Below, in pieces: positions 15,210 to 35,470 of a stretch of DNA of 64,000 bases (the stretch's first letter is position 1; every line of letters begins with the position of its first letter). Both the position numbers and the translations under genes were made by a program. Source of the stretch: Cupriavidus pauculus (GTDB lineage Bacteria; Pseudomonadota; Gammaproteobacteria; Burkholderiales; Burkholderiaceae). Location of the stretch: positions 1,860,001-1,924,000 of the forward strand of contig NZ_CP033969.1 in assembly GCF_003854935.1 (NCBI RefSeq), given 5' to 3'. A model generated the notes under the pieces. It was not told the DNA's origin. It saw only the letters and a program-made list of their open reading frames with translations, and searched no databases.

Positions 15210-15425
15210 CTACTTGCGCGTGCGCCCGGTCTCCCGTTCCTGCCCTGCAACCTGCGATATGCCGGGAAAACCTTCCGGATACTGGATCAACCGCGCCAGC
15301 GGCTGGCGCCGGTGTGCCTGCCAGCGATAGCTGCCGGCCAGCCGCGCGCCGCCGATGATGGCGGTCATGGCCTCGCGGTCGAGGTCCATGTTCTCCGACA
15401 AATCCTTGATGACGATGACTGCCAT
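15210..15425 (-). CDS. double-glycine leader peptide 1 (divergent, 71 aa)
   Basis: The leader reads MAVIVIKDLSENMDLDREAM followed by TAIIGG, i.e. the same D-L-S / L-D / GG pattern as the four genes upstream and at 34298. The part after GG (about 45 residues) is basic and Arg/Gln-rich, without Cys, and unlike the other members. It is the last of four peptide genes in one direction (16534 to 15210). Candidate substrate of the C39 peptidase transporter at 28932; role unknown. Confidence 0.65.
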   Translation of the reverse strand: MAVIVIKDLSENMDLDREAMTAIIGGARLAGSYRWQAHRRQPLARLIQYPEGFPGISQVAGQERETGRTRK

Positions 15426-15573
15426 GGCGTTCTCCAGCGAGCGGGCCTTGCCACGGCCGGCCGCAACGGCGCCGGTCGGGCGGCGCCGGGGCAGGCGCGG
15501 GCCCGATTCAGTATAGGCGAGGGGTGCTGCCGCATGCGCCGGGCACGTGGCAGGCCCCTGCCTGGCGCGGCGT

Positions 15574-15840
15574 TCAGGCCACGGCCAGGTTGCCGCCCCA
15601 TTGCGTCGGCTTGACGTTGAGCGCAAGGTTGCCCAGGTCGACGCCGACGATCTTGTTGTTGTTGAAGGCGGCAACGTTCACCTGCTGCAACTGCTGCACG
15701 CTCTGGTTGATGTTGATGTTCACCAGCGGGCCGGCTGCGGCAATCTTGCCGAACCAGTCGGCGCCGCCACGGATGGCGCACAGCGACTGCTGGTCGAGGT
15801 CCTTGCTGACGGCAAGGTCGCGGACGATGATCGATGACAT
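15574..15840 (-). CDS. double-glycine leader peptide 2 (88 aa)
   Basis: Start at the ATG at 15840 (CAGGAG upstream). Leader MSSIIVRDLAVSKDLDQQSL then CAIRGG; cleavage after GG would free a ~62-residue product. That product begins ADWFGK, then has a Q/N-rich stretch (SVQQLQQVNVAAFNNN) and ends GGNLAVA. No Cys in the mature part. Hydrophobicity is moderate and no membrane helix is clear. It shares the leader but not the YFGNGSAFQ core of its two upstream neighbours. Probably exported by the C39 ABC transporter of this locus. Confidence 0.75.
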   Translation of the reverse strand: MSSIIVRDLAVSKDLDQQSLCAIRGGADWFGKIAAAGPLVNININQSVQQLQQVNVAAFNNNKIVGVDLGNLALNVKPTQWGGNLAVA

Positions 15841-15922
15841 GGTGGACTCCTGATGCAAGTGCGGTGGGTGCGGGCCGCCGGGCGGGCGCCTGCGGGCGGC
15901 GCCCGTCCGGCCGGCGGCTGAC

Positions 15923-16189
15923 TCAGGCGTTGTTCTGCGCGTACTGGTTCGTGCGCACGGTGTTCGACAGGTGGTCCTGGAACGCCGAGCCGTTGCCGAA
16001 GTAGTTGCCTACCTCCTGCATCTGCTGGTTCTGCTGGTCGATCTTCACGTGCGAGTCGAACGACAGCTTCACGGGGGCGTAGACGCTGGTCCACGGGGCG
16101 ATCAGGCCCAGGCCGCCGCGCACGGACTTCATGCGGGTGGCTTCGAGGGTGGCGGTGCTGGACAGGTCGAGGATGGTCAGGGTGCTCAT
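15923..16189 (-). CDS. double-glycine leader peptide 3, YFGNGSAF family (88 aa)
   Basis: Leader MSTLTILDLSSTATLEATRM then KSVRGG at residues 21-26. The mature part carries the family core: NQQMQEVGNYFGNGSAF followed by Q-D-H and a TNQYAQNNA end. That core is almost identical to the genes at 16259 and 21984. AGGAGA-type ribosome binding site before the ATG. The 60-odd residue product has no Cys and is rich in Asn and Gln. Likely co-transcribed from the sigma-54 promoter at 16613. Function not known; bacteriocin, signal or matrix protein are all open. Confidence 0.8.
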   Translation of the reverse strand: MSTLTILDLSSTATLEATRMKSVRGGLGLIAPWTSVYAPVKLSFDSHVKIDQQNQQMQEVGNYFGNGSAFQDHLSNTVRTNQYAQNNA

Positions 16190-16258
16190 GGCAGTCTCCT
16201 AGCGGGTGGTGTGGTGCGTGGGTCTGGGTAAAAGCTGTGCGGTGGCGTGGCCAGGGGC

Positions 16259-16534
16259 TCAGGCCGGGTGGTACACGTTGTTCTGCGCGTACTGGTTCGT
16301 CGTCACCGTGTTGTGCATGTTTTCCTGGAAGGCGGAGCCGTTGCCGAAGTAGTTGCCCACCTGCTGCATCTGCTGGTTCGACTGGTTGACCGTGAACACC
16401 TTGTCGATCGACAGCTTGAACGGGCTGTAGACCGTGGTGACGGGCAGGATGGCGATGCCGCCGCGCACGGCACGGCAGGCGCGGGCGTCGAGGGTTTCGG
16501 TGGAGGACAGGTCCTTGATGGTCAGCGTGGTCAT
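16259..16534 (-). CDS. double-glycine leader peptide 4, YFGNGSAF family (91 aa)
   Basis: First gene behind a sigma-54 promoter. Leader MTTLTIKDLSSTETLDARAC then RAVRGG (26 residues). The mature part holds SNQQMQQVGNYFGNGSAF and TVTTNQYAQNN near the end. GGAGA stands 5 bases before the ATG. The first half of the mature part (ILPVTTVYSPFKLSI) follows the same pattern as its paralogues but varies, while the Q/N-rich second half is strongly kept. Candidate cargo of the transporter at 28932. Confidence 0.8.
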   Translation of the reverse strand: MTTLTIKDLSSTETLDARACRAVRGGIAILPVTTVYSPFKLSIDKVFTVNQSNQQMQQVGNYFGNGSAFQENMHNTVTTNQYAQNNVYHPA

Positions 16535-16612
16535 GATGGTCTCCTTGAGAGGAAGGGGTGCTTCGGGTCAGGTGATGAGCATCGGGTTGGTGTCGCGCTC
16601 GGACCAGATATC

Positions 16613-16627
16613 GCAGCAAGCGTGCCA
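16613..16627 (-). promoter_or_regulatory. sigma-54 promoter for the four-peptide unit
   Basis: TGGCACGCTTGCTGC on the minus strand: GG and GC of the -24/-12 elements are 10 bases apart. The gap to the start codon and ~45 bases downstream match the promoter at 21892 almost base for base. The activator encoded at 32030 is the obvious regulator. The rest of 16535-16939 holds no gene. Confidence 0.8.
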
Positions 16628-16939
16628 GCGCGGGCCCGGCGCGGCGTGAAAAGCCGGCGAGCCTTGTGCCGCAACGGTTTGCGGGCTGCGGGGCGGGTCG
16701 TGCGATGGGGTGCGGGCTACGCGCGGGCCGGGCCGGTGGTGGGGCCGCGCCAACAGAATGGTGTCGGGTGTCGGCGCGGGGGCAACGCCGGGGCGTGCGC
16801 GGCCGGGCAGGGCGGCATTGCGGATGGCCGGAGTGCGCACTAGTATCCATCGAAGGCAACGTGCCGTGATGCAACGGTTGCGCCCATGAGGGCGCGGCCA
16901 GTTGGCCACCCTCGGCCACCACTCGTCGGGATGCACCGG

Positions 16940-19069
16940 ATGTCCAGCCTGACCGAACTCATACGGGATTTCCAGCGCGGCAGCATGAGCCGCGACGAAT
17001 TCCTTGCATCGGTGGATCTGGCCCTCAAGGACGATCAGACCGACTCGACCCAGTTCGCGCGCGTGCTCGCCGAGGAACACACGCGCTTTCCATTGCCCCC
17101 GGCCGTCTATGCCGAGGTGCTGCATCGCATCGACTCGCACCTGTCCACGCAGTTCGACCCGATGGGCGACGTGCGGCACGCGCCGCCCGGCCCCGGCGAG
17201 GAAACCCGCATCGAGCCCGACCTGGCCGGCTACGGCGCGGCGGCGCCGGGCGGCGTGGCCACGGGCAGCACGGGCACCGGCGGCACCACGGGCACCACCG
17301 GTGGCACGGGCGGCAGCCACGGCGCGCTGTTCACGGGCGGCCATGTGCCGTCCGGGCCCACCAAGGGCGTGGGCGACACGCTGAACGGCCGCTTCGTGCT
17401 GGAGGAATGCCTGGGCGTGGGCGGCATGGGCACGGTCTACAAGGCGCTGGACCTGCGCAAGCTGGAGGCGTCGGACCGCAAGCCGTACATCGCCATCAAG
17501 GTGCTGAACATGCAGTTCAGCGGCCATCCGAAATCGCTGATCGCGCTCCAGCGCGAGGCGCGCAAGGCCCAGCAGCTCGCCCACCGCAACATCGTCACCG
17601 TCTACGACTTCGACCGCGATGGCCCGACGGTCTTCCTGACCATGGAATACCTGCAGGGCAAGTCGCTGAACCGCGTGCTGCGCTCGCCGGAATTCCAGGG
17701 CCTGCCGTACATCAAGGCGATGCCGATCATCGTCGGCATGGGCAGCGCGCTGGCCTACGCGCACGAGCGCGGCTTCGTCCATTGCGATTTCAAGCCCGCC
17801 AACGTGTTCCTGACCGACCGCGGCGAGGTCAAGGTGATCGACTTCGGCATCGCGCGCGGCTTCCAGCAGCCAGCCGACGACGCCGACCAGACCGTGTTCG
17901 ATCCCGGCTCGCTCGGCGGCATGACGCCGGCCTACGCCAGCCCCGAGATGTTCGAGCACCGCGAGCCCGATCCGCGTGACGACATCTACGCGCTGGCCTG
18001 CGTCAGCTACGAACTGCTGACCGGCAGGCATCCGTACAACCGCGTGTCGGCCACCGAGGCCCGCGCGAAAAACCTGAAGCCCGTGCAGCCGCGCACGCTG
18101 TCGCGCGGGCAGTGGAAGGTGTTGCGCCAGGCGCTTTCGCTCGATCGCGCCACGCGCACGCCGACGGTCAAGCAGTTCCTGGCCGGGCTGGGCGCCGAGC
18201 CGCAGAGCGTGGGCACGGGGCTGCCCGTGATCGCCGGCAGCGTCATTGCCGGCGTGGCGCTGGCCACGGGCGTGCTGGTCTACTTCTGGCGCAGCCACCA
18301 GCCGTCGCCCGATGCCGCGCGCCCGCCGCCCCAGGCTGCGGCGCCCGCTGTGCGCGAACCGGCCGTGCCCGAGGCCGTGCCGCTCAAGCCCGAGGCCGTG
18401 GCTCAGGTCATCGCCGCCACGCCGTGCGCGCTGCTGCACGCGAACATCGAAGGCAACACGCTGGCGGTGGACGGCTACGTGGCCGATTCGGCGCTGGCGG
18501 GCCTGCGCGACAAGCTCGGCAAGCTGCCCGGCGTGAAGACGCTGAAGCTGGACGCCGCGCCGCTGACCGCCGACAAGTGCGATGTGGTGCGGCTGGTCGC
18601 GCCGTACTGGTCGGGCGGCCAGCGGGCGGGAGTGGGGGACAAGGCCGCCGACAAGTCCGGCGCGCTGCTGCGCACGCGTGGCGGCACGCAGCTGACCGAG
18701 GGCACGCCGCTGGTGCTCGATGTCAACACGCCGCCGCACGAATCGTATGTCTACGTCGACTATTTCGCGGCCGACGGCAAGGTGGCGCACCTGGTGCCCA
18801 GCGGACGCGTCCAGGGCAACCAGGCGCCGGCCAGCTACAGCGCCACGGTGGGCGACAGCGGCGACTGGGTCATCTCGAAGCCATTCGGCACGGAACTGGT
18901 GGTGCTGCTGACCACGCCGGCGCCGCTGTTCCCGGCGCGCCGGCCCGAGGTGGAGACGCGGCAAGACTACCTGCGCGCGCTGGAAAAGCCGCTGGCGCAG
19001 ATGGCCAGCAAGCACGGGCGCGAGAAGATCAGCGCCGACATCGTGCAGATCTCGACGCGCGCCAAATAG
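16940..19069 (+). CDS. membrane Ser/Thr protein kinase (PpkA-like) with periplasmic DUF4384-type domain
   Basis: About 709 aa. Residues ~1-60 are helical; ~90-145 is a Gly/Thr-rich linker. The kinase domain runs from ~147 to ~400: GVGGMGTVYK loop, AIKVL lysine, catalytic loop HCDFKPAN (Cys in place of the usual Arg, a non-RD type), IDFGIAR, and an activation segment ending PAYASPEM. One membrane helix follows at ~428-450, then a C-terminal domain outside with a DUF4384-like block (VYVDYFAADGKVAHLVPSG). Known relatives such as PpkA control type VI secretion. Here its neighbours are an FGE protein, an FHA protein and a PP2C, all within one export locus. Confidence 0.88.
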   Translation: MSSLTELIRDFQRGSMSRDEFLASVDLALKDDQTDSTQFARVLAEEHTRFPLPPAVYAEVLHRIDSHLSTQFDPMGDVRHAPPGPGEETRIEPDLAGYGAAAPGGVATGSTGTGGTTGTTGGTGGSHGALFTGGHVPSGPTKGVGDTLNGRFVLEECLGVGGMGTVYKALDLRKLEASDRKPYIAIKVLNMQFSGHPKSLIALQREARKAQQLAHRNIVTVYDFDRDGPTVFLTMEYLQGKSLNRVLRSPEFQGLPYIKAMPIIVGMGSALAYAHERGFVHCDFKPANVFLTDRGEVKVIDFGIARGFQQPADDADQTVFDPGSLGGMTPAYASPEMFEHREPDPRDDIYALACVSYELLTGRHPYNRVSATEARAKNLKPVQPRTLSRGQWKVLRQALSLDRATRTPTVKQFLAGLGAEPQSVGTGLPVIAGSVIAGVALATGVLVYFWRSHQPSPDAARPPPQAAAPAVREPAVPEAVPLKPEAVAQVIAATPCALLHANIEGNTLAVDGYVADSALAGLRDKLGKLPGVKTLKLDAAPLTADKCDVVRLVAPYWSGGQRAGVGDKAADKSGALLRTRGGTQLTEGTPLVLDVNTPPHESYVYVDYFAADGKVAHLVPSGRVQGNQAPASYSATVGDSGDWVISKPFGTELVVLLTTPAPLFPARRPEVETRQDYLRALEKPLAQMASKHGREKISADIVQISTRAK

Positions 19070-19081
19070 GGGCCGGGCCGG

Positions 19082-20332
19082 CTACCGGGCGTCGCGCACC
19101 ACGCGGAATCCGTTCTGGGACTGCCGCACGCTGGTGCTGTACTTGAACCGCGTGGACGACACCATGTAGCTGGCGCCCTCGCGCCACGACCCGCCGCGGA
19201 TCACGCGCGCCGTGCAGGCCGGTTCGTCCCAGGCGCGGCCGTCGGTGGGCGCGTTCTTGTACGAGCTGTGCCAGCAGTCGGCCACCCATTCCCAGACGCT
19301 GCCGTTCATGTCGTGCAGGCCGTACGGGTTGGCCGCGAACGATCCCACGTTGGCCGGCGCGGCATCGCTCCACGGGTCGCCGCAGTCCTTGCAGTTGGCG
19401 TTGCCCTTGCTCATCTTGTCGCCCCACCAGAACGCGGTACTGGTACCGCCGCGCGCCGCGTATTCCCATTCGGCCTCGGTGGGCAACCGGTAGGGCTTGC
19501 CGGTGGTCTTCGACAGCCACGCGACGTACTGCTGCGCGTCGTCCCAGCTGATGTCACGCACCGGCGCGTTGCGCGCGTCGGCGGGGTTGGTGGCAATGCG
19601 CGGGCAGGCGTTGGCGTCGGCGCAGGCATTCCATTGCTCGACGGTGACCTCGTACTTGCCGATGGCGAACGGGCGGCCCACGTTCACCTGGTGCGGCGGG
19701 CGCTCGGCGGGGTCGCTGGTGCTGCTGCCCATCGTGAACGCGCCCGGGTTCAGGCTGACCATCACGGGACACTGCGGACAGTCGCGCGACTCGCCGCCCT
19801 TGGCCTCGGCCGGACGCGCCGCGCCGGCGGCGGGCGCTTCCTTGCCCTCGGCGGGATAGGTGATGGTGCCCTGCGAGATCGCGCCGCCCGCGCGTGTGCG
19901 CGGCTGGCCGCTGGCGGACGGAGGCGGGGTGGGGGCGGGTTTGGCGGCTGGCGGCGGCTTGGTGGCTTCCGCCCTGGTTTCCGCCCTGGCCTCGGGTTTC
20001 GGTTCCGCCTTGGCGGCCGGCGCTGGCGCAGGTGCCGGTGCGGGCTGTGCCGGCGTGGCCGCGCGGATCCGTTCGAGCCGCGTCTTGGCCAGCGCCGCGA
20101 AGCGGCCGTTCGGGTACTGCTTCAGGTACGCCTCGTAGTCGGCGGCGTAGGTGCTGTTCTTGATCGAATCCCAGAACGACAGCTCGTACTGCTCGTCGCT
20201 GTTCTTGGGCAGGATGCCCGCGCGGGCCGGGGGTACCAGCGCATCCGTGGCCACGGCGGCCCAGTGCCGGCCGTCGCCATCCACCCCCGCGCCCAACGCC
20301 AGCAGCGCCACGACAAATGCTTTCCGCCACAT
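19082..20332 (-). CDS. periplasmic SUMF1/FGE-domain protein (TagR-like)
   Basis: The start at 20332 is set by AAGGGGGTG before the ATG; 416 aa. A signal peptide ([15 protein letters not shown]) comes first, then a block [19 protein letters not shown], a Pro/Ala linker (~95-170) and a formylglycine-generating-enzyme fold (~190-416). The fold shows [41 protein letters not shown] and NGFRVVRD. In type VI secretion the FGE-like TagR feeds the kinase PpkA. Its gene lies tail-to-tail with the kinase gene here, so a similar sensor role is likely. Catalytic activity is not implied. Confidence 0.85.
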
Positions 20333-20555
20333 ATTCACCCCCTTCAGGATCGCCGCGGCGTGCGGTGTGGAGTTGCCGTGACGCGGTACCGGCCGTTTCA
20401 AGATAGCACAGCGCTTGTGGCGTGAAAGTTCGCTTTTTGGGGCCTTCCGACCTACGCTGTAGGACACATCGCCGAGCGCATCAAGAACATCCACCAAGAA
20501 TCCGCTCCCGCGCGGGGGACCGTGTGCAGCGGACAGATCTCCGGGAGGAGCCGCC

Positions 20556-20984
20556 ATGTCCAGACGATCCCTGCAGCGCGCGCTCGCCGCTGCGTTCCTG
20601 GCCAGCTGGACCACGCTCGCCATACCGCTGACGGCGGCCCCGAAAGGCGCCGAGACCTACATTATCTGGCCGGGCGACGGCGCGGTCATCGACGGCGGCC
20701 GGCTCTGGGTCCGCATGGGCCTCAAGGGCATGGGCATCTGCCCCAAGGGCATTGAGCGGCCCAACTGCGGCCACCACCACCTGCTCATCGACGCCGAACT
20801 GCCGCCGCTGGACAAGGAAATCCCGAACGACCGCAATCACCTGCACTTCGGCGCCGGCGAGACGGACGCGCGCATCGAACTGCCACCGGGCAAGCACACG
20901 CTGCAGCTTCTGCTTGGCGACAGCAAGCACGTTCCGTTCGATCCGCCGATTTACTCCAGGAAGATCACGATCACCGTGCGCTAG
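20556..20984 (+). CDS. secreted DUF4399 protein 1
   Basis: 142 aa with a signal peptide ([24 protein letters not shown]). The mature part is a single DUF4399 domain with a CGHHHLLID motif, the block [19 protein letters not shown], and [21 protein letters not shown] ribosome binding site before the ATG. The His-rich motif suggests metal binding, but no function is established for the family. The next gene is a paralogue, ~70 percent identical over the domain by eye. Whether these belong to the export system is open. Confidence 0.8.
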
Positions 20985-21011
20985 CGCACACAGGTGCGAA
21001 CGGGGAGAGCC

Positions 21012-21518
21012 ATGACCCATCTCAGACCGATGTTCATCGCGGGACTGGCGGCGCTGGCCGTCGCCGTGCCGTCATCGCGCGTGCAGGCCGCCGACGCCTC
21101 GGCGCCAGCGGCGCACGCCGACCACGCCTCGGCCCCCGCGGCCGCCAAGGGCACGGGACCCACGCCGGCGCCCCGGAACGCCTACCTCTACATCGGCTAC
21201 CCGAACAACAACCAGACCATGCCGGCCGGCAAGCCGATCAAGGTCTGGTTTGGCCTGCGCAACATGGGCGTGGCGCCCAAGGACGTCAAGTTCCCGAACA
21301 CGGGCCACCACCACCTGCTGATCGACGTGGACCTGCCGCCGCTGGACAAGGAGATTCCCAACGACCGCAATCACCTGCACTTCGGCGCCGGCGAGACAGA
21401 GACCACCATCGAGCTGCCGCCGGGCAAGCACACGCTGCAACTGCTGATGGGCGACGAGAAGCACATCCCGACCAACCCGCCGGTCTACTCGAAGAAGATC
21501 ACGATCTATGTGAGATGA
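21012..21518 (+). CDS. secreted DUF4399 protein 2
   Basis: 168 aa from the ATG at 21012 (GGGGAGAG just upstream). Signal peptide MFIAGLAALAVAVPSSRVQA, a linker of Ala/His/Ser/Pro, then a DUF4399 domain with [20 protein letters not shown] and HTLQLLMGDEKHIP. It sits 27 bases behind its paralogue and is followed by a terminator, so the two form an operon. Periplasmic or secreted; role unknown. Confidence 0.8.
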   Translation: MTHLRPMFIAGLAALAVAVPSSRVQAADASAPAAHADHASAPAAAKGTGPTPAPRNAYLYIGYPNNNQTMPAGKPIKVWFGLRNMGVAPKDVKFPNTGHHHLLIDVDLPPLDKEIPNDRNHLHFGAGETETTIELPPGKHTLQLLMGDEKHIPTNPPVYSKKITIYVR

Positions 21519-21569
21519 CCGGCCCAGAGCTAGGCGCGCCAGGACGGGGCGGTCCGGCCCGGCGCCACG

Positions 21570-21600
21570 CGGCGCACAGCGATGTGCGCCGTTTTTTTTT
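21570..21600 (+). terminator. terminator of the DUF4399 operon
   Basis: Stem GGCGCACA-GCGA-TGTGCGCC followed by G and nine T. Confidence 0.9.
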
Positions 21601-21623
21601 AACGAGCTTGCCGGTGGTTTGCT

Positions 21624-21748: not shown

Positions 21749-21891
21749 AGCGAACCGACAGTGCGGGAGAGACTAGTTGGACCGGATCCAACACTCGACG
21801 GCCCACGAACAGCGCCCGCAAACCGCCCCGCCACCCCCAATCCCTTGCCCCACAAGCCTTCCCAGCCTTTCATCCCTCCACGCCCACCCCT

Positions 21892-21906
21892 TGGCACGCT
21901 TGCTGC
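21892..21906 (+). promoter_or_regulatory. sigma-54 promoter for peptide 5
   Basis: TGGCACGCTTGCTGC with GG and GC 10 bases apart, 78 bases before the ATG of the peptide gene. The downstream ~50 bases (GATATCC..GTCCGAGCGCGACACC) repeat the leader at 16613 nearly exactly, so promoter and gene were duplicated together. Confidence 0.8.
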
Positions 21907-21983
21907 GATATCCAGTCCGAGCGCGACACCAACCCGATGCTCACCACCTGAAACGCAGTGACCTTCCTTTCCAGGAGACCATC

Positions 21984-22247
21984 ATGACCAAGCTGATCAT
22001 CCGTGACCTGTCCTCGACCGCAACCCTCGACGCCAAGGCGCTGCACGCCGTGCGTGGCGGCACCGTGTTTGCGCCGCGTACGTCGATCTTCACGCCCGTG
22101 AGCCTGTCGTTCGAATCGCACAAGACGGTCACGCAGCAGAACCAGCAGATGCAGGAGGTAGGCAACTACTTCGGCAACGGCTCGGCCTTCCAGGACCATA
22201 TGCGCAACAGCGTGACGACGAACCAGTACGCCCAGAACAACGCCTGA
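21984..22247 (+). CDS. double-glycine leader peptide 5, YFGNGSAF family (87 aa)
   Basis: Paralogue of the genes at 15923 and 16259 on the other strand. Leader MTKLIIRDLSSTATLDAKAL then HAVRGG; mature part TVFAPRTSIFTPVSLSFESH, then the shared NQQMQEVGNYFGNGSAF core and TTNQYAQNNA end. CAGGAGA ribosome binding site. A terminator follows at 22323, so it can be made alone, just before the outer-membrane export gene. Candidate transporter cargo. Confidence 0.82.
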   Translation: MTKLIIRDLSSTATLDAKALHAVRGGTVFAPRTSIFTPVSLSFESHKTVTQQNQQMQEVGNYFGNGSAFQDHMRNSVTTNQYAQNNA

Positions 22248-22482: not shown

Positions 22483-23988
22483 GTGAATGCCCTAGCCTTT
22501 GCGCCGCGCAGCCTTCTCCGGGTCTCCGGCATCGCCATCGTGATCGCCACGCTGGCCGGCTGCGCCGATTTCCGGCCCCTCACGTACCAGCGGCCCGAGA
22601 CGCCGGCCAAGGCCGCGTGGACAGGCGACCGCGCCGGCAATGCAGCGGTCACCGTGTCGCCGACGGAAACCATCGTGCCGAACTGGTGGCAGGCGTTTGG
22701 CGACCCCTACCTGGACCAGCTTGTGGCCCGCGCGCTGTCCGGCAACTACGACATCAAGGTGCTGGCGGCGCGCATCCGCGTGGCAGGCGCCCAGATCGCC
22801 GAGGCGCGGGCCGGCGCGCTGCCGGTGTTTGACATCGGCGCCGGCGTCGATGTGACGAAGACGACCGGGCAGGCCGTGTCGAAGACCTACAACCTGGGCG
22901 GCACCGTGAACTGGGACATCGACGTCTGGGGCAAGGTCGAGAAAGGCGTGCAGGCACAGACCGCCGAATTCCGCGCCACCGAGGCCGACTGGCGGGCCGG
23001 CTACCTGTCGCTGGTCTCTGACGTGTCGATCACGTACTTCACGATCCTCCTGCTCGACGAACAGCTTGCGCAGCAGCGCCAGACGCTCGCGCGCAACAAC
23101 GACATCCTGGCGACCTACAAGGCAATGCTGGCCAACGGCCTGCTGCCGCAGATCCGCGTGATGCAGCAGCAGGCGGAGATCAACCGGCTGACCAAGGACT
23201 TGCTGGAGTTGCGCCGCTCGCGTGACGTGGCCGAGAACGCGCTGGCCACGCTGGTCGGCGTGCCGGCCGGTGAGCTGCGAGTGCCGCCGGGCAAGCTGCA
23301 GGAGCGCGTGAACCTGCCCGCGGTGCCGGCCGGGCTGCCGTCGCAGTTGCTGGCGCGCCGGCCCGACATCGTCGCCGCCGAATACCGCGTGCTGGCCGCC
23401 TACAACCTCGTGGGCCAGGCGCGGCTGGCGCAGCTACCCAGCATCAGCCTGACCGCGCGCGGCGGCACGGCCAGCTTTGCGCTGTCAGACCTGATGAAGT
23501 CGTTCACGTTCGGCTTCATGCCTAGCATCAACCTTCCGATGCTGGACCCCAACGTGCGCGCCCGCGTGAAGACGACCGAGGCCAACGTCGGCGTGGTCGA
23601 GAACGAGTACGGCCGCACCGTGATGACCGCGTTCGAGGAAGTGGAGAGCGCGCTGGTCAACGTCGACGCCCACAAGCAGCAGCGCATCGAGCTGCAGCAG
23701 CAGGTGAACCAGCTGCGCGTGGTGGGCAGGCAGATCGAGGCCCAGGCGCGCGAGGGCATCGCGTCCCAGCTCGACGTGTTCGAGTCCGAGCGCTCGCTGC
23801 TGGCCGCCGAGCAGTCGTTGTTGGCCGCCCACCAACAAATCCTGGCCGACACCGTCACGCTGTACAAGGCACTCGGCGGCGGCTGGCCCGACGTAGCGGT
23901 GCGCAACGCGGCGGCCGATGCCGGGGCCGATGGCGCCCCCAGCGCGCCCGCGCCGGCGGGCGTGGCGGCACCCAAGGCGGCGCGTTAG
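22483..23988 (+). CDS. NodT-family outer-membrane export lipoprotein (TolC-like)
   Basis: 501 aa from the GTG at 22483, chosen for AGGAAG 5 bases upstream and the signal sequence that follows directly. Lipobox LAGC at about residue 26. Then two OEP repeats of long helices: PNWWQAFGDPYLDQLVARAL opens the first, LPSQLLARRPDIVAAEYRVLAAY the second. This is the classic NodT/OprM layout, and it would form the outer-membrane channel for the HlyD/ABC exporter encoded further on. RND pump genes, the other usual partners, are absent. Confidence 0.9.
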   Translation: MNALAFAPRSLLRVSGIAIVIATLAGCADFRPLTYQRPETPAKAAWTGDRAGNAAVTVSPTETIVPNWWQAFGDPYLDQLVARALSGNYDIKVLAARIRVAGAQIAEARAGALPVFDIGAGVDVTKTTGQAVSKTYNLGGTVNWDIDVWGKVEKGVQAQTAEFRATEADWRAGYLSLVSDVSITYFTILLLDEQLAQQRQTLARNNDILATYKAMLANGLLPQIRVMQQQAEINRLTKDLLELRRSRDVAENALATLVGVPAGELRVPPGKLQERVNLPAVPAGLPSQLLARRPDIVAAEYRVLAAYNLVGQARLAQLPSISLTARGGTASFALSDLMKSFTFGFMPSINLPMLDPNVRARVKTTEANVGVVENEYGRTVMTAFEEVESALVNVDAHKQQRIELQQQVNQLRVVGRQIEAQAREGIASQLDVFESERSLLAAEQSLLAAHQQILADTVTLYKALGGGWPDVAVRNAAADAGADGAPSAPAPAGVAAPKAAR

Positions 23989-28198: not shown

Positions 28199-28951
28199 AT
28201 GACAGCCATCGTGCGCATCGACGACGAAGTGATCGGCGTCGACGAATTCGTGAGGGTGCTGAAGCTGACCGGCCAGTTCGAGGGGCTGGTCGAGCAGCTT
28301 GTGCGGGACAAGCTGACCGCCCACGCCGCGCGGCGCCATGGCGTGACGCTGAGCCAGGACGAGGTGCAGGCGCGCGCCGACCAGTTCCGGCGCGTGCATG
28401 GCCTGCATCGCGCGGCGGACATGAACCACTACCTGGACGCGCTGCACATCACGCTGGACGAGTTCGAGACCTTCATCACCGACAGCCTGTACCAGGAGAA
28501 GATGCTGGCGCAGGTGGGCACCGACGAGGCCGTGGAGGCGTACTTCCAGCTCAATTCGCCGAAGTTCGACAGCATCGAGGTCAGCCACATCGTGGTGGAT
28601 ACCGAGGGCAAGGCGCGCGAGCTGGTGTCGTACCTGCAGGACGACCCGGACAGTTTTGCCGAGATGGCGCGCGAGCATTCGATCGCGGACACGCGCGAGC
28701 AGGGCGGGGACATCGGCAAGGTGCTGCGCGGATCGCTGAAGGGCGACATCGAGGCCAAGGTGTTCAACGCGCAGCCCGGCGACCTGCTGGGGCCGTTTCC
28801 GGCGCCGGACAAGTCGTTCTTCGAGGTCTTCCTGGTGCGGGCCAAGCATCCGGCCCGGCTGGACCCGGACGTTACTGTCGAGATCCGCCGGCGGCTGCGC
28901 GAGGACTGGCTGATGGCAAGGGCGCAGGAACATGTCATCGAAGCCCGCTAG
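28199..28951 (+). CDS. PpiC-type peptidyl-prolyl isomerase without signal peptide
   Basis: 250 aa, AAGGGAGAG before the ATG. N-terminal helical SurA/PrsA-like part (1-115), then a parvulin domain (about 120-225): VSHIVVDTEGKA, FAEMAREHS, GGDIGKVLRG, PGDLLGPF. No signal peptide or membrane helix, so it should work in the cytosol. Similar genes stand next to HlyD and C39 transporters in cyanobacterial peptide clusters. It may hold or unfold the peptides before export. Its end overlaps the transporter start by 20 bases. Confidence 0.87.
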   Translation: MTAIVRIDDEVIGVDEFVRVLKLTGQFEGLVEQLVRDKLTAHAARRHGVTLSQDEVQARADQFRRVHGLHRAADMNHYLDALHITLDEFETFITDSLYQEKMLAQVGTDEAVEAYFQLNSPKFDSIEVSHIVVDTEGKARELVSYLQDDPDSFAEMAREHSIADTREQGGDIGKVLRGSLKGDIEAKVFNAQPGDLLGPFPAPDKSFFEVFLVRAKHPARLDPDVTVEIRRRLREDWLMARAQEHVIEAR

Positions 28952-31900: not shown

Positions 31901-32033
31901 CACGATCATGCAGGCCGACAAGATCCTGGTGCTGTACGAGGGCGGCATCGTCGAGCAGGGGCGGCACGAGGAACTGCTGGAGCGCCGCGGCATGTACTAC
32001 CAGCTGGTCCAGAAGCAGTTGAGCGCGGCATGA
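28932..32033 (+). CDS. C39-peptidase ABC exporter with two cyclic-nucleotide-binding domains
   Basis: 1033 aa. Two cNMP-binding-type domains come first (about 30-150 and 170-290; the second has FGERACVMRQEQ). The C39 peptidase follows (about 320-450): catalytic Cys331 in EMDCGAACLAM, His in HWEGYHYVVVYG and Asp in VADPAIG. Then six membrane helices (480-770) and an ATPase with GRSGSGKTT, LSGGQIQRLCIARAL and LLVFDEATSALD. C39 domains cut double-glycine leaders during export, and six such leaders are encoded here. HetC and NHLM-type exporters share the cNMP-domain plus ABC plan. The two extra domains suggest gating by a nucleotide or a partner. Confidence 0.93.
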   Translation: MSSKPASEPAAGAAAQPPGAGQSLADFLATVEILSPLTRDEIERLAASARPLAFGFGDTVCNAGEPAEGIFIVRNGSVRVFNEEHGKEISMGVRKAGEVFADIALLREYRHESSVRASGKTELLMIPRAVSEPVVGGNPAALAFITSHVAISSAGGFVARLFDLRGKLDKLELEDAVRSVGVKRVAAGKTILQQDGRDDRRLYVVRQGTVRIVREEDGDTFPLATLGQGEIFGERACVMRQEQVASAIAETDVRLLVIPEKTVQLILERNARLREVLEERIRAVDRELHRQQKLAERRKRPVLLDLHSKPEMGERLIRRFALVEQAEEMDCGAACLAMVCRHHGIPMTLGKLRELANVTTSGATLDSLARAGESLGFTTRGVQCTRDALMGFELPFIIHWEGYHYVVVYGVSARHVWVADPAIGFRKMGTEEFERGWSGTCLLFSPGTQMNELAVSRSPWLRFIGYLSPYRRILAHLFLATFVIQLLGVVPPLIIQNILDGVVVHQNIGLLHLLILGLVISNVFTQLMVTIRAYLANFMVRNMDFAMMSHFFKHTLSLPLSFFAKRKTGDIFARFQENQTIRAFLTESTVTTALNLLMVFIYFSIMFLYNVKLTLLLIAFVIPIAALTVVVTPKVKTYAREVFAASTDAKAYLMETLGGAETVKGMGIERPVRLRWERKYAKALDKQYQAQSFHILVGLVSQVLNAATTITILWVGATLVLERELTIGQLIAFNAFMGSVLAPLMGLVALWGQLNDAGVAMERLGDVLDLEPEQKPQDVMSRVSLPDLQGEIQFDGVYFRYGGDDTPYVLENISFHMRPGEMVAIVGRSGSGKTTLAKLLVGFYKPTDGTMKVDGYDMNVIDTEFFRAQVGYVMQTNLLFSGTVAENIACGDDSPDRRRIEEVAKMADAHAFISKLPLGYEQVVGERGIGLSGGQIQRLCIARALYHDPRLLVFDEATSALDTQSESNILANMQEILRGRTAVIIAHRLSTIMQADKILVLYEGGIVEQGRHEELLERRGMYYQLVQKQLSAA

Positions 32034-33352
32034 AGTTATACAACCCCACCCCTGCCACGTCCGCGGTGTCGTTTGCGGGCCTGATCGAACGGATCGAGAT
32101 CCTGCGCTCGACGCTGCGCTGGTCGTCGCGGCTGGAGCGGCCCGACATCGAGAAGCTGCTCAAGCAGGCCACCACGCTGCGCGACGAGGTGATGGGCCTG
32201 TCGCACAAGGAGCGCTTTGTGGCGGCCGCCACGGCCGCCGGCGAGCCGCAGGCGGCCGAGGTGGAGCCCGTGGAGATGTCGGCGCGGGAGCGGCGCCAGG
32301 CGCTGATGGAGCGCAGCTTCATCTTCGAGGGCACGTTCGGCGACAACCCCAAGCTGCTGGAGGCGCTGGAGATTGCCGAGAAGGCGGCGCCCACGGACCT
32401 GCCGGTGCTGATCGACGGCGAGAGCGGCACCGGCAAGGAGCTGATGGCCAAGGTGATCCACGCCAACGGGGTGCGCAACGACAAGCCGTTCATCTCGGTC
32501 AACTGCGGCGCCATTCCGGACAGCCTGCTGGAATCGGAACTGTTCGGCCACAAGAAGGGCGCCTTCACCGGCGCGGCCAACGATCGCCGGGGCAAGTTCG
32601 AGAGCGCCCACACCGGCACGATCTTCCTGGACGAGATTGGCGAGCTGCCGCTGACCGGACAGGTCAAGCTGCTGCGGGTGCTGGAGGCGCACGAGATCCA
32701 GCGCGTGGGGTCGGACGAGGTGATTGCCGTCGACACGCGCATCGTGGCGGCCACGAACAAGGACCTGCGCCGGATGAGCCAGGAAGGCACGTTCCGCGAG
32801 GACCTGTTCTACCGGCTCAGCGTGATCCACGTGACGCTGCCCGCGCTGCGCGAGCGGCGCGACGAGATTCCGCTGCTGGTGGCGTACTTCGGCGACGAGG
32901 CGGCCGGGCAGCTCAAGCGGCGGCCCATCAAGCTGACGCCGCGGCTGCGCGACTTCCTGCTGCACTACGGCTATCCGGGCAACATCCGCGAACTGCGCAA
33001 CCTGATGTACCGGCTGTCGTGCCTGGCCGGCGATACGGCGGACTTTGCCCACCTGCCGCAGGACATCCGCCCGAGACCGGCCGGCCTGCAGGCCGTGGCG
33101 GCGGCCCCGGGCGGCAAGGCGACGATCACCGATCTGAGCACGGCCACATCGCTCAGCGAAGCCAAGCGCGCGGCCAGCGACGAGGCCGAGCGGGCATTCC
33201 TGGAACGCGGGCTGCAGGAAGTGGGCGGCACCGTGGCCGAACTGGCGCGTCGCTTCGACATGAACCGGTCGCACATTCAGATGCTGCTGAAGAAGCACGG
33301 CATCCACTCGAAGGACTTCCGGAACAGCAACCGGCAAGCGGAGGGGAAATAA
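32030..33352 (+). CDS. sigma-54 activator without receiver domain
   Basis: 440 aa; ATG overlaps the transporter stop. The first ~95 residues are helical and of no family I know. The AAA+ domain (about 103-345) has Walker A GESGTGKE, the sigma-54 contact loop GAFTGA near residue 177, and FLDEIGELP. A Fis-type HTH ends the protein (VAELARRFDMNRSHIQMLLKK). With no receiver, GAF or PAS part, control must come by another route; the kinase/FHA/PP2C set is the natural suspect. Four sigma-54 promoters nearby are its likely targets. Confidence 0.92.
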   Translation: MKLYNPTPATSAVSFAGLIERIEILRSTLRWSSRLERPDIEKLLKQATTLRDEVMGLSHKERFVAAATAAGEPQAAEVEPVEMSARERRQALMERSFIFEGTFGDNPKLLEALEIAEKAAPTDLPVLIDGESGTGKELMAKVIHANGVRNDKPFISVNCGAIPDSLLESELFGHKKGAFTGAANDRRGKFESAHTGTIFLDEIGELPLTGQVKLLRVLEAHEIQRVGSDEVIAVDTRIVAATNKDLRRMSQEGTFREDLFYRLSVIHVTLPALRERRDEIPLLVAYFGDEAAGQLKRRPIKLTPRLRDFLLHYGYPGNIRELRNLMYRLSCLAGDTADFAHLPQDIRPRPAGLQAVAAAPGGKATITDLSTATSLSEAKRAASDEAERAFLERGLQEVGGTVAELARRFDMNRSHIQMLLKKHGIHSKDFRNSNRQAEGK

Positions 33353-33383
33353 GGGGGCTGTTTCTCGACACCGTGTGTGTGCT

Positions 33384-33405
33384 CCTCTCCCGCCCGCGGG
33401 AGAGG
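33384..33405. repeat. REP-like palindrome, third copy
   Basis: CCTCTCCCGCCCGCGGGAGAGG between two convergent genes; may also help end transcription. Confidence 0.55.
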
Positions 33406-33416
33406 GCCGACCCCGC

Positions 33417-34193
33417 TCAAACCTCCGGATTCAGCAGCGTCATGTCAGACCCGCCGCCGATGTCCTCGGCGCGGATCACCACCACCGACACGTTGTCGCG
33501 GCCGCCGTTGTCCAGCGCCTGCTTCAGCAGCGCGTCGGCGGCGCGGGCGGGGTGGGGGTCGGCGGCCAGCACGGCGGCGATCTGGTCGTCCTCCACCTCG
33601 TTGCTGAGGCCGTCGCTGCAGAGCAGGAACAGGTCGCCATCGCCGATTTCCAGCGTCAGCCGCTCCAGGTCCAGCGTGGTGGACGCGCCCACCGCCCGCG
33701 TGATCGTGTTGTGGGCGGGATGGTGGCGCGCTTCCTCGGCCGTGATCAGCCCCCGCGCCTTCAGGCGCTCTACCTGGCTGTGGTCGCGCGACAGCTGCTT
33801 CAGGTGGCCGTCGCGGAACAGGTAGAGCCGGCTGTCGCCGGCCCAGAGGCAACTGCACTGGCGCTCGCACGCCAGCAGGATGACCACCGTGCTGCCAATC
33901 ACGCGCACCTTGAGCCGCGCGGCTTCGTCGATCAGCAGCTGGTTGACGGTCTGCATGGCGATGCGCGCGTGGTCGACGGCGGCGTCCAGGCTATCGGCCC
34001 GGGGCAGCGCGGCCAGGGCCTGGACGATGGCGCGGCTGGCGAAATCGCCCACCGCGTGGCCGCCCATGCCGTCGGCCACGACCCAGATGCCGTGCTCGGG
34101 CATCGCCAGGCAGGCATCCTCGTTGCGCTCACGCACCCGGCCCACGTCTGTGCACGCGGCCGAGCTCCAGCGGAATTGCGATACGCAGGTCAC
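33417..34193 (-). CDS. PP2C-type protein phosphatase (PppA-like)
   Basis: 258 aa from a GTG with CGGAG upstream. The metal-site motifs of soluble bacterial PP2C are all present: RERNEDACL, WVVADGMGGH, GSTVVIL, LWAGDSRLY, LLCSDGLSNEV, GGRDNVSVVV. It should reverse the action of the kinase at 16940, as PppA does for PpkA. It lies behind peptide 6 on the same strand with a hairpin between, so part of its expression may come from the sigma-54 promoter at 34631. Confidence 0.92.
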   Translation of the reverse strand: MTCVSQFRWSSAACTDVGRVRERNEDACLAMPEHGIWVVADGMGGHAVGDFASRAIVQALAALPRADSLDAAVDHARIAMQTVNQLLIDEAARLKVRVIGSTVVILLACERQCSCLWAGDSRLYLFRDGHLKQLSRDHSQVERLKARGLITAEEARHHPAHNTITRAVGASTTLDLERLTLEIGDGDLFLLCSDGLSNEVEDDQIAAVLAADPHPARAADALLKQALDNGGRDNVSVVVIRAEDIGGGSDMTLLNPEV

Positions 34194-34232
34194 GGCATGC
34201 TCCGGCGCGGGGCGACACCGTCCCGCGCGTAA

Positions 34233-34249
34233 GGCGCCCCCGGGGCGCC
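34233..34249 (-). terminator. hairpin between peptide 6 and PP2C gene
   Basis: Perfect GGCGCCCC-C-GGGGCGCC palindrome without a T-run. It could lower, rather than stop, read-through into the phosphatase gene. Confidence 0.4.
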
Positions 34250-34297
34250 GGATGTCTGGAAGTCACCGCGAAAGTCCTGCCGACAGGCGGGCAGGGC

Positions 34298-34588
34298 TCA
34301 GACCAGTCGTCCCTTGTTGCGGGCGTCCATGCCGGTGTCGACCGTGATGGTGGAATTCGGCGCCGTGTTCTGGACGTTCACGTTCTGGAACTGATTGTTC
34401 ATCTGATCAGCATAGAAGCTGTAGTTGATCTCGTAAAAGTTCACGACAGGCAACGCGCCGGGCCGGGCAGCCACGTAGGGCTGGATCCAGCCGAACACCC
34501 ACGGCGCGCCACCGCCCCGGACGGCCGACATGGCGCGGAAATCGAGCTCGCGATGGGTGTTCAGGTCGCGGATGGTCAGGGTCGCCAT
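34298..34588 (-). CDS. double-glycine leader peptide 6 (96 aa, divergent mature part)
   Basis: Leader MATLTIRDLNTHRELDFRAM then SAVRGG. The mature part (~70 residues) has APWVFGWIQPYVAA, a tyrosine-rich stretch (NFYEINYSFYADQ) and a Q/N-rich stretch (NNQFQNVNVQNTAPN). It shares the leader and Q/N bias but not the YFGNGSAF core. GGAGA before the ATG. It stands behind its own sigma-54 promoter and before the PP2C gene. Candidate cargo of the C39 transporter. Confidence 0.75.
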   Translation of the reverse strand: MATLTIRDLNTHRELDFRAMSAVRGGGAPWVFGWIQPYVAARPGALPVVNFYEINYSFYADQMNNQFQNVNVQNTAPNSTITVDTGMDARNKGRLV

Positions 34589-34630
34589 GATGGTCTCCTT
34601 GGGCAGGCTTGCGGGGGATGCCTCTGTTCA

Positions 34631-34645
34631 GCAAGCGGTGTGCCA
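34631..34645 (-). promoter_or_regulatory. sigma-54 promoter for peptide 6
   Basis: TGGCACACCGCTTGC on the minus strand, near-perfect match to the consensus (TGGCAC-N5-TTGC), 43 bases before the start codon. Confidence 0.85.
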
Positions 34646-34926
34646 CGGTGGGGGCGTGACGTCGGCGGGGTTCTTAGGATCAAATGTGATGCCGGATGCT
34701 CGTTCGGCGTTGGTTGGGCGCCAACACCCGTGCTGGAGTGGTGGGGCAGGGCCGTCAGGGGCGGGCCGACAGGAGCCATATCGGCGAAGAGCGAGCGGCC
34801 GACAGCGGTTGCCGGTGGCGGACCAACACAATCGGTTCGTAGCTGTTGGTCGATGCCCGACGAAACCGGGTCCCCGGAAACCTCCGATTCCCCGCCAGCC
34901 CTTGTCGGACCGTGGTTCGGCCCCAC

Positions 34927-34941
34927 TGGCACGCTTGATGC
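34927..34941 (+). promoter_or_regulatory. sigma-54 promoter for the LRAT-domain gene
   Basis: TGGCACGCTTGATGC, GG and GC 10 bases apart, 62 bases before the start codon. It shares the -24 block and the spacer with the promoters at 16613 and 21892. The gene-free stretch 34646-34926 shows nothing else. Confidence 0.78.
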
Positions 34942-35002
34942 GGTTGGGTAGGCACCAACGCCGCACTGCCTGCCCGCCACCGACACCAGAATCGAGACCG
35001 CC

Positions 35003-35470
35003 ATGAACACCCAAGACCAACAACAAGCCAGCCGCCCGGACGATGCCTACCAGCCCGGCGCCCATCTGGTGACGGAACGCAATGGCTACGCCCATCACGG
35101 CATCTACGTCGGCCAGGGCCGCGTGATCCACTACGCCGGCTTCTGCCAGGCGCTGCATGCGGGCCCAGTCGAGGAAACCTCGCTCGAACTATTCGCCCAG
35201 GGCCATGGCGTGACCGTGCGCAACCAGCCCTGCGCGCGCTACCTCGGGCAGGAAGCCGTCGCCCGTGCCCGCAGCCGCCTGGGCGAGAACCGCTATCACC
35301 TGCTGACCAACAACTGCGAACACTTCTGCACGTGGTGCCTGCTCGGCCAGGCCCGCAGCGAACAGGTGGAAACCTGCCTGCGCAACCCGGCAGCGGCAGT
35401 GGTTACCGTGCTGCACCTGGCACTGGCCATGCTGTCGGGCATCCACCCCGCCAGCCTGACGGCCGCCTGA
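35003..35470 (+). CDS. LRAT-domain (NlpC/P60-like) protein under sigma-54 control
   Basis: 155 aa. LRAT-type papain-like fold: His32 in HHGIYVG, His43 in RVIHYAG, and the catalytic Cys105 in NNCEHFC. A hydrophobic C-terminal helix (AAAVVTVLHLALAMLSG) may anchor it to the membrane. Relatives act as acyltransferases, phospholipases or peptidases. No signal peptide. The shared sigma-54 promoter type ties it to the peptide genes; it could modify peptides or lipids, or protect the producer. The substrate is unknown. Confidence 0.82.
   Translation: MNTQDQQQASRPDDAYQPGAHLVTERNGYAHHGIYVGQGRVIHYAGFCQALHAGPVEETSLELFAQGHGVTVRNQPCARYLGQEAVARARSRLGENRYHLLTNNCEHFCTWCLLGQARSEQVETCLRNPAAAVVTVLHLALAMLSGIHPASLTAA

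Follow-up and report, generated by a model that had tools for sequence, protein, structure and literature searches.

Exporters of small leader peptides that combine a C39 peptidase with an N-terminal cNMP-like extension are known from cyanobacteria. According to the main text of Wang et al. 2011 (PMC3140520), the "long type" C39 ABC exporters, which carry a CAP_ED extension and occur with HlyD and a SurA-type rotamase, belong to groups I, II and VI. HetC of Nostoc PCC 7120, as portrayed in the accessible text of PMC10986499, has an N-terminal cNMP-type domain that is required in vivo and binds ppGpp in vitro. In the threonine phosphorylation pathway of type VI secretion (T6SS), binding of phospho-Thr by an FHA domain activates secretion, as stated in the accessible text of PMC3953482. 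The contact-dependent Cdz system of Caulobacter exports peptides by a type I route, after which they are retained and aggregated on the cell surface (PMC5380434, accessible text), and the region treated in the accessible part of a report on insect-associated Burkholderiaceae (PMC9088363) consists of other genes. Within the accessible open-access literature, no account of a phospho-switched type I peptide exporter of the present kind was found.

The window, the whole stretch of 64,000 nucleotides of Cupriavidus pauculus DNA that was analyzed, contains at 15.2-35.5 kb a locus for six double-glycine (GG) precursors, an ABC exporter with two cNMP-binding domains and a C39 domain, HlyD, a NodT-type channel, PpiC, a sigma-54 activator, an LRAT protein, a kinase, an FGE-domain protein, a double-FHA protein and a PP2C. 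Every gene named in an earlier, sequence-only reading was found near the position given there, which confirms this gene set, and two DUF4399 genes (20556-21518) were additional to its list. Its statement that the locus holds no T6SS structural gene agrees with the present result, as none was recognized there. The features are as follows.

15210..15425, minus strand: GG-leader peptide A, 71 aa; basic, N/Q-poor type
15574..15840, minus strand: GG-leader peptide B, 88 aa; N/Q-rich
15923..16189, minus strand: GG-leader peptide C, 88 aa; N/Q-rich, C-type
16259..16534, minus strand: GG-leader peptide D, 91 aa; C-type; the left peptide run starts here
16612..16627, minus strand: sigma-54 -24/-12-like site before peptide D
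16737..16755, no strand: palindrome TGTTGG-N7-CCAACA, 1 mismatch, putative activator site
16940..19069, plus strand: membrane Ser/Thr kinase (Hanks type), one TM, C-terminal DUF4384; conserved Thr89 at 17204-17206, activation-loop Thr318 at 17891-17893
19082..20623, minus strand: FGE-domain protein without the Cys motif of formylglycine enzymes
20556..20984, plus strand: DUF4399 protein
21012..21518, plus strand: DUF4399 protein
21775..21793, no strand: palindrome, 1 mismatch, putative activator site
21892..21907, plus strand: sigma-54 -24/-12-like site before peptide E; 16 bases identical to the peptide D site
21984..22247, plus strand: GG-leader peptide E, 87 aa; C-type
22483..23988 (start not fixed; ORF from 22321), plus strand: NodT-family outer-membrane channel; TIGR01845 307.1 bits, cut-off 210.05
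24199..26796, plus strand: double-FHA membrane protein; 2 FHA, disordered linker, TM helix, helical domain
26793..28175, plus strand: HlyD-type membrane fusion protein; Pfam HlyD_3 over cut-off
28199..28951, plus strand: PpiC rotamase without long hydrophobic segment
28932..32033, plus strand: ABC exporter; two cNMP-binding domains, C39 peptidase, TMD, NBD
32030..33352, plus strand: sigma-54 activator with GAFTGA; Pfam recognizes no sensor domain
33417..34193, minus strand: PP2C phosphatase behind peptide F; conserved C-terminal tail Thr252 at 33438-33440
34298..34588, minus strand: GG-leader peptide F, 96 aa; GGGAPWVFGW type
34630..34645, minus strand: sigma-54 -24/-12-like site before peptide F and PP2C
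34708..34862, no strand: palindromes between peptide F and LRAT at 34708, 34810 and 34844 (1, 2 and 2 mismatches)
34927..34942, plus strand: sigma-54 -24/-12-like site before LRAT
35003..35470, plus strand: LRAT-domain protein; NCEHFC motif, C-terminal hydrophobic segment

We read the locus as a type I secretion system that is devoted to small double-glycine peptides and contains its own switch by Thr phosphorylation; with the mechanism proposed below, this reading has a probability of about two in three. The sequence-only reading, a peptide exporter with a putative phospho-switch and its own sigma-54 regulon, is supported at the level of sequence.

The exporter has the Cys, His and Asp of the C39 domain, which we take to be the catalytic residues, followed by a TMD and an NBD with Walker and signature motifs. 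Adaptor and outer-membrane channel are recognized by Pfam HlyD_3 and TIGR01845 above cut-off, while the stricter curated models TIGR01843 (HlyD; 158.8 of 208.65) and TIGR01846 (HlyB) stay below it. Membership of the NHLP (NHLM) exporters was rejected (TIGR03796, 559.9 against a cut-off of 853.3 bits; TIGR03794, 76.8 against 156.2 bits). A CAP_ED/cNMP N-terminal extension, here with two cNMP domains, occurs with HlyD and rotamase genes as in the cyanobacterial long-type group, and the exporter core is of the known kind represented by that group and HetC. What is new in the system is the putative dedicated module for Thr phosphorylation.

These two FHA domains are the only ones in the genome, which encodes two kinases and two PP2Cs. 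Positions R48, S65, R66 and N87 are invariant and H68 is kept in more than 90% of 35 sequences; these are presumably the phospho-Thr-binding residues. The double-FHA protein has a TM helix within residues 336-363 and a helical domain at 365-827. Among the best 50 of 328 matches in a fold comparison of its model, 49 were FHA-bearing chains in our reading and one was a weak match to the helical repeat of the Ctr9 complex (E 0.02, TM-score 0.09), so that no convincing relative of the helical domain appeared there. The kinase match to DUF4384 lies 0.1 bit under cut-off. Acidic-x-Thr motifs are common to the kinase (T89 and T318, 100% of 40), the FHA protein (T274 in 100% and T246 in 99% of 85 sequences; 25018-25020 and 24934-24936, both in predicted disorder) and the phosphatase (T252, 99% of 94), where they lie within variable linkers or tails; the motif came from scanning for that motif itself, and the same scan also picked out conserved Thr residues close to acidic ones in HlyD, PpiC, the ABC protein and the activator. 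An active formylglycine enzyme was rejected for the FGE protein because the catalytic Cys pair after RGGSW, presumably the mark of such enzymes, is missing. Its earlier description as periplasmic holds in so far as some relatives have signal-like N-termini and the start is not fixed; the ORF in the window has no long hydrophobic segment. PADLOC matched the kinase domain in a generic way (PD-T4-6 and others) and PP2C weakly, which we do not take as a sign of a defense system.

A GAFTGA AAA+ activator, -24/-12 promoters and upstream palindromes together indicate a putative sigma-54 enhancer-dependent regulon. Sigma-54 sites (threshold ≥14) precede 54 of 87 lead peptide genes and none of 61 internal ones; for the palindrome the figures are 76/87 and 0/61, against 4.7% of random stretches. 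Both elements lie upstream of the peptide operons, one of which includes PP2C, and mostly of LRAT too, whereas the exporter genes are without them; this specificity supports the regulon claimed from sequence. The LRAT gene was found in 60 of the 80 named loci, and PP2C stands directly behind peptide F in 39/39. In the flanks examined, seven of the 80 loci (L130, L134, L137, L141, L142, L157, L165) showed no PP2C, three of them Cupriavidus with more than 8 kb covered downstream; this counts against the phospho-switch reading.

The same regulatory features could mean that kinase, FHA protein and PP2C govern gene expression through the activator, the exporter itself not being phospho-gated. The activator has neither a receiver nor another recognized sensor domain, and its gene follows the exporter gene in 80/80 named loci; the palindrome also precedes the divergent kinase gene in 24/26 cases and the FHA gene in 13/40; and PP2C, behind peptide F with a sigma-54-like promoter, would form a feedback loop. 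Against this, the FHA protein is a TM protein encoded in the run FHA-HlyD-PpiC-ABC, with its large domain across the membrane, and the activator's own acidic-x-Thr residue, T102 (93%), lies at the well conserved start of the AAA domain, not in a variable linker. Distant relatives keep FHA adjoining the ABC gene and HlyD: next to exporters of 32-35% identity it is found in three of four loci, that is in all three that are readable, the fourth contig ending inside the exporter. Expression control without gating is considered unlikely.

The leader profile, run over the 6.18-Mb genome, finds exactly six peptides, all in the locus (E≤9.4e-11), the next two matches having E 0.9 and 2.4, so the GG-leader substrates are encoded together with the exporter. 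Across 41 regions (the window and 40 relatives) the leader pattern gives 150 peptides, and 0 in the same sequences reversed; near the distant exporters (L200-L203) a loose pattern found no GG peptide. C39 ABC protein, HlyD, rotamase and GG peptides match the bacteriocin clusters of Wang 2011 (PMC3140520, main text), and the locus could thus encode a common bacteriocin exporter of NHLP or microcin type whose regulators are incidental. This is highly improbable, since the NHLP models fail as given above, none of the six peptides matches Pfam at E≤0.1 and their two NCBIfam matches are at chance level, mature B, C and F are near-neutral on average with 20-23% N+Q, and no immunity or modification gene was recognized, though such genes may still exist. 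Tentatively, the most likely place of action for the peptides is the cell surface or the matrix, a role as cationic antibiotics being less likely. Their composition allows no more than a guess at a curli-like or amyloid fold, as the peptide structure model has low confidence (mean pLDDT 53).

Orthologues of the exporter (≥74% identity), the FHA protein (E≤1e-30) and the kinase (E≤1e-60) have identical, all-or-none presence sets in 41 of 151 Burkholderiaceae genomes, the 41 carriers being related to one another; presence is mixed within six genera. A check of this co-occurrence had been proposed from sequence alone, and the sets coincide even in two carriers without a TssC match (G016 and G105). 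The set PpkA, TagR, Fha and PppA switches type VI secretion post-translationally, the FGE-type protein and the PP2C being putative counterparts of TagR and PppA. That the module chiefly serves a T6SS or another cell machine, and is merely housed here, draws on this resemblance, on TssC in 39/41 carriers, and on the genome's own T6SS, whose TssC lies about 1.2 Mb from the locus with no FHA, kinase or PP2C match nearby. TssC occurs, however, in 50 of 110 genomes without the module and is unmatched in the two carriers named, and the module tracks the exporter exactly; T6SS cross-control was rejected on these grounds, and service to a T6SS or another machine is very improbable. The earlier term "T6SS-style" stands as an analogy only, the FHA protein having its own TM-plus-helical architecture.

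The kinase lies 100 kb to 1.05 Mb from the exporter in five genomes and on a different contig in eight, three of which may be assembly breaks. In Caballeronia it can sit more than 100 kb away and is still retained; the moved kinase adjoins at least peptide A in at least 9 of 12 stretches (two short contigs are without), and the relocation looks like a single event. In Noviherbaspirillum FHA-HlyD-NodT is physically separate from the exporter, and in 4/4 Noviherbaspirillum/Herbaspirillum genomes where FHA does not adjoin the exporter it is located elsewhere in the genome. The identical carrier sets and the distant Caballeronia kinase link the parts beyond the gene order of a single genome. A genomic island of uncoupled neighbors co-traveling by linkage would suit the gene order conserved in most loci, but is scarcely credible and, as pure linkage, was rejected, because co-occurrence survives these separations and FHA adjacency recurs at 32-35% exporter identity.

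In the preferred reading of a phospho-switched exporter, the substrates would be small N/Q-rich double-glycine peptides plus one basic type, from which the ABC protein would remove the leader before export through HlyD and the NodT-type channel, with PpiC, by its family, a probable cytosolic holdase/isomerase. The activator would bind TGTTGG-N7-CCAACA, as the motifs suggest, and switch on the peptide operons, one with PP2C, and the LRAT gene. A periplasmic cue may reach the kinase through DUF4384 or the FGE protein; the kinase would phosphorylate the acidic-x-Thr residues in itself, the FHA linker and the PP2C tail. The FHA domains would read phospho-Thr, so that the exporter might be assembled or opened through the TM and helical, presumably periplasmic, domain beside HlyD, and PP2C would reset the switch. 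As in HetC, the cNMP domains may provide a second gate, one of nucleotide type.

An exporter with FHA also occurs in Aromatoleum, and one distant locus has in addition a kinase carrying its own cNMP domain. A wider class, in which type I peptide exporters would sense nucleotides and have a kinase, an FHA protein and a PP2C as their own switch, the Burkholderiaceae system and L200, L202 and L203 would be separate branches and FHA proteins would be envelope scaffolds coupling phosphorylation to exporter assembly, is put at even odds. If the main reading is true, exported peptides of Cupriavidus, Caballeronia, Paraburkholderia and Noviherbaspirillum gain a defined exporter, regulator and switch that are open to study in tractable strains, and the only FHA domains of the genome, together with one kinase-phosphatase pair out of two, acquire a role. 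Control of secretion by Thr phosphorylation is known from T6SS; a type I peptide exporter sharing this logic would make post-translational gating a wider principle.

With the cyanobacterial long-type exporters the locus shares the cNMP-like N-terminal extension on a C39 ABC protein, HlyD, the rotamase gene and GG precursors; "kinase" and "forkhead" are absent from the main text of PMC3140520, and the present locus adds FHA, kinase, PP2C and the sigma-54 activator. HetC is likewise a peptidase-containing ABC exporter with an N-terminal cNMP-type domain, but the accessible text of PMC10986499 names one such domain, gives its physiological substrate as not identified, lacks "FHA" and has "kinase" once. 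Cdz resembles the system in small leader peptides and type I export, and differs in its glycine-zipper peptides and immunity protein, a phospho-switch going unmentioned in the accessible text of PMC5380434. With the T6SS pathway (PMC3953482, accessible text) the locus shares a Ser/Thr kinase and an FHA reader dedicated to a secretion machine. That machine is a contractile injection apparatus, whereas the locus described here is without T6SS genes, its FHA protein has a TM helix and a helical domain, and its kinase carries DUF4384.

Genes of the locus were mapped with a codon-usage gene call and Pfam and NCBIfam scans, and the gene list of the sequence-only reading was borne out. From the left end, the order is:

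four double-glycine (GG) leader peptides, minus strand
membrane Ser/Thr kinase, divergent from these
FGE-domain protein, minus strand
two DUF4399 genes
fifth GG peptide
NodT-type channel
double-FHA protein
HlyD
PpiC
cNMP2-C39-ABC exporter
sigma-54 activator
peptide F, then PP2C, minus strand
LRAT protein

The kinase matches Pkinase with 133 bits (Pfam) and has a hydrophobic segment at 430-448; its DUF4384 score is 26.9 bits, against a Pfam cut-off of 27. All motif checks were positive for the kinase, phosphatase, peptidase, ATPase and activator, with the motifs that we take to be typical of each. The FGE-domain protein lacks RGGSW-x-C-x4-C, which we take to be the formylglycine enzyme motif. 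On the right the locus is bordered by a tRNA-Arg and a phage-type integrase. The block at 35714-64000, directly beside LRAT, is a prophage or element and contains tRNA-Arg(CCT), then the integrase at 35956-37167 and genes of a phage, with terminase at 48907 and portal at 50454. A lower-GC block at 1698-8485 lies between what we take to be an intact thymidylate synthase ORF and an N-terminal fragment resembling thyA. It holds phage-integrase-type genes (one over and one under the Pfam cut-off), a 624-aa ORF with no Pfam match and a 170-aa ORF, and is perhaps a recombinase-trio element in thyA. The adjoining genes at 9763-12396 encode a histidine-specific methyltransferase and a second FGE-domain protein, presumably the ergothioneine genes EgtD/EgtB.

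The sequence-only reading had proposed a peptide exporter under a T6SS-style phospho-switch, and a search for co-occurrence of its kinase, FHA and C39 genes. In 151 Burkholderiaceae genomes (own genome plus 150), an exporter orthologue was found in 41 (74-100% identity; next matches ≤38%), an FHA orthologue (E≤1e-30) in 41 and a kinase orthologue (E≤1e-60) in 41. The three genome sets are identical, so that the same 41/151 genomes carry all three. Carriers comprise, by presumed genus, 10/15 Cupriavidus, 13/14 Caballeronia and 9/13 Paraburkholderia, and 2/14, 3/3, 1/3 and 3/11 genomes in the genera coded g11, g13, g16 and g25. Chance odds computed for this overlap take no account of how the genomes are related, and we do not read them as a probability. 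Around the 40 exporters other than that of the window, FHA, HlyD, PpiC and NodT are present in 40/40, and the sigma-54 activator, PP2C and peptide F in 39/40, the exception (genome G119) ending at a contig edge. FGE and DUF4399 were found in 37/40, LRAT in 34/40, and the kinase, within the fetched region, in 26/40. Among named loci, the best 80 of 268 were read (table). Large replicons that PLSDB lists as plasmids also carry exporter orthologues (75-79% identity); three of these replicons are from Caballeronia and one from Burkholderia stagnalis (NZ_CP071130.1, NZ_CP049317.1, NZ_CP049157.1, NZ_CP156686.1).

Table. Genes found in the best 80 of 268 named loci
Activator: 80
PpiC: 79
FHA and HlyD: 73
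PP2C and peptide F: 73 (PP2C not found in the flank of L130, L134, L137, L141, L142, L157 and L165)
NodT: 71
DUF4399: 65
FGE: 61
LRAT: 60
Kinase: 19 (most flanks stop short of the kinase position)

The association persists where the parts are separated. Kinase and exporter are ≤25 kb apart in 28/41 genomes, 100 kb to 1.05 Mb apart on the same contig in 5/41, and on different contigs in 8/41; in G072, G092 and G119 the separation may only reflect a break in the assembly. At least 9 of 12 fetched Caballeronia kinase stretches have peptide A beside the kinase, and three (L222, L223, L227) have a B- and a C-type peptide in addition; no peptide was found in L228 and L233, contigs of <6 kb holding kinase, FGE and DUF4399. 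Because the moved kinases have neighbours in common, the relocation in Caballeronia looks like one event. The FGE protein of L228 (L228:1480-3354) carries, as a fusion, a caspase-like C14 domain that is missing from the window copy. FHA is absent from the flank of seven of the best 80 named loci. L116 and L124 are cut by a contig end, L141 is from a MAG, and in L156, L157, L165 and L192 (Noviherbaspirillum/Herbaspirillum) FHA lies elsewhere in the genome; FHA was present in 8/8 genomes queried genome-wide. All four FHA stretches fetched from Noviherbaspirillum/Herbaspirillum (L218-L221) encode DUF4399, NodT, HlyD and an extra protein of 607 to 637 aa that bears FHA, with a partial kinase in three and FGE in two. 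By Pfam, the FHA-bearing protein of L218 (L218:3605-5500) is FHA-GAF-HD-GYP, with counterparts in L219-L221, hinting that c-di-GMP may act in the same circuit.

Distant exporters were searched with a profile of the cNMP-C39 part (cut-off 1e-60 for the order, 1e-45 for the phylum). Matches were found in 3/300 genomes of the order (own genome included) and 7/398 of the phylum, four of the latter being distant, with 32-35% identity to the window's exporter (1033-1056 aligned columns for three of them, 678 for the other). L203 contains a sigma-54 activator fragment, PpiC, HlyD, exporter, FHA and two channel proteins; L200 contains HlyD, exporter, FHA and two channel proteins; L202 contains a kinase with its own cNMP domain (L202:7913-9403), the only kinase seen among these loci, with HlyD, exporter and FHA. 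In L201, whose contig stops within the exporter, PpiC and HlyD are present. FHA therefore adjoins the exporter in 3/3 readable distant loci. The linker contains EKTMFFGG in L200 at the place of DKTTFVGA in the window, the latter having no such clear match in L202 and L203.

A leader profile built from 25 rows gave six matches in the whole 6.18-Mb genome (E 2.5e-14 to 9.4e-11), all at the locus, the next two having E 0.9 and 2.4; the six GG leader peptides of the sequence-only reading thus hold. The leader pattern gave 150 peptides in the window and 40 relatives and none in reversed sequences. A simple script-made grouping sorted them into types A (26; short and basic, mean charge +5), B (25), C (70) and F (29). 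The mature parts of B, C and F are near neutral on average and contain a mean of 20-23% Asn+Gln, versus a median of 7% in the window gene calls. Cys is present in 2/150. C-type peptides have in common Q-x3-Q-x-Q ... G ... A-F ... Q ... N, and the AlphaFold model of one was not confident (mean pLDDT 53).

Sigma-54 sites were predicted with a -24/-12 matrix made by hand from what we take to be the consensus (cut-offs 13 and 14). Five sites ≥14 lie in 14501-36000, versus 1.4 expected from shuffles: before peptides D, E and F, before LRAT, and inside LRAT (35418) with no gene behind. The proposed sigma-54 regulon of the locus is supported across relatives, as predicted sites ≥14 precede 54/87 lead peptide genes versus 0/61 internal ones (one at 13). 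No upstream region reached 13 for 26 kinase, 40 FHA, 40 HlyD, 40 PpiC, 39 ABC, 39 activator, 39 PP2C and 21 DUF4399a genes. NodT reached it in 2/33 and LRAT in 27/34 (six at 14); random 250-bp stretches did so in 0.9% (0.6% at 14). With 420-bp upstreams, PP2C reached 13 in 13/39, which we read as the peptide F promoter located before PP2C; in 39/39, PP2C lies behind peptide F in the same orientation, at a gap of 9-169 bp. A palindrome search of peptide-gene upstreams yielded GTTG-N9-CAAC. TGTTGG-N7-CCAACA (≤2 mismatches) is present at 76/87 lead and 0/61 internal peptide genes and in 4.7% of random 420-bp stretches. As these same upstreams had served to find the palindrome, the stronger controls are the internal genes and the spacing: sites with ≤3 mismatches are most frequent 108-110 and 141-142 nt upstream of the -24 box. 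The palindrome is also present upstream of LRAT (32/34), the divergent kinase gene (24/26) and FHA (13/40), though no -24/-12 site precedes kinase or FHA.

Candidate phosphorylation sites were sought as Thr residues that ≥80% of orthologues keep and that have a conserved acid within positions -3 to -1. These are kinase T89 (100% of 40; always with an acid at -2 and followed by Arg) and T318 (100% of 40; D-x-T-V-F, activation loop), FHA protein T246 (99% of 85) and T274/T275 (100/98% of 85), and PP2C T252 (99% of 94; 6-8 residues short of the C-terminus in each of the 93 proteins with this Thr). T89, T246, T274 and T252 lie in or beside poorly conserved segments, and T246 and T274 in a stretch with pLDDT <50 in the structure model. 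The scan also gave kinase T147, T361 and T597 and sites in HlyD (2), PpiC (2), ABC (8) and the activator (3), which in our reading belong for the most part to folded or well conserved regions. FHA1 keeps the residues that we take to be pThr ligands. What the sequences show directly is the gene composition, the exact co-occurrence, its survival when parts are separated and the distribution of motifs. The acidic-x-Thr motifs may be phosphorylated and bound by FHA. Thr phosphorylation by the kinase, read by FHA, would then gate peptide export; we infer this step, as well as the function of the peptides.

The only FHA domains of the own genome are the two in the FHA protein of the locus. The genome encodes two Hanks kinases (E≤1e-8) and as many PP2Cs; the kinase and PP2C outside the locus form a pair of their own at 3.610 Mb of contig C2 (G000:C2:3609752-3611194). 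No called gene in the 58 kb around TssC (C2:3.119 Mb) matched the proteins of the window. TssC was found in 39/41 carriers and 50/110 non-carriers; module and T6SS therefore vary independently. A literature search, mostly of journals open without subscription, found no paper combining these parts. In T6SS, FHA binding to phospho-TssL is reported to activate secretion (PMC3953482). By analogy, the kinase-FHA-PP2C module may work like this Thr-phosphorylation pathway; it is not linked to T6SS genes, and by linkage it falls outside that pathway. The core of the exporter belongs to a type already described. Its counterparts are the cyanobacterial long-type C39 exporters, described by Wang et al. 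2011 (PMC3140520) with CAP_ED, HlyD and SurA rotamase, and HetC, whose cNMP-type domain is reported to bind ppGpp (PMC10986499).
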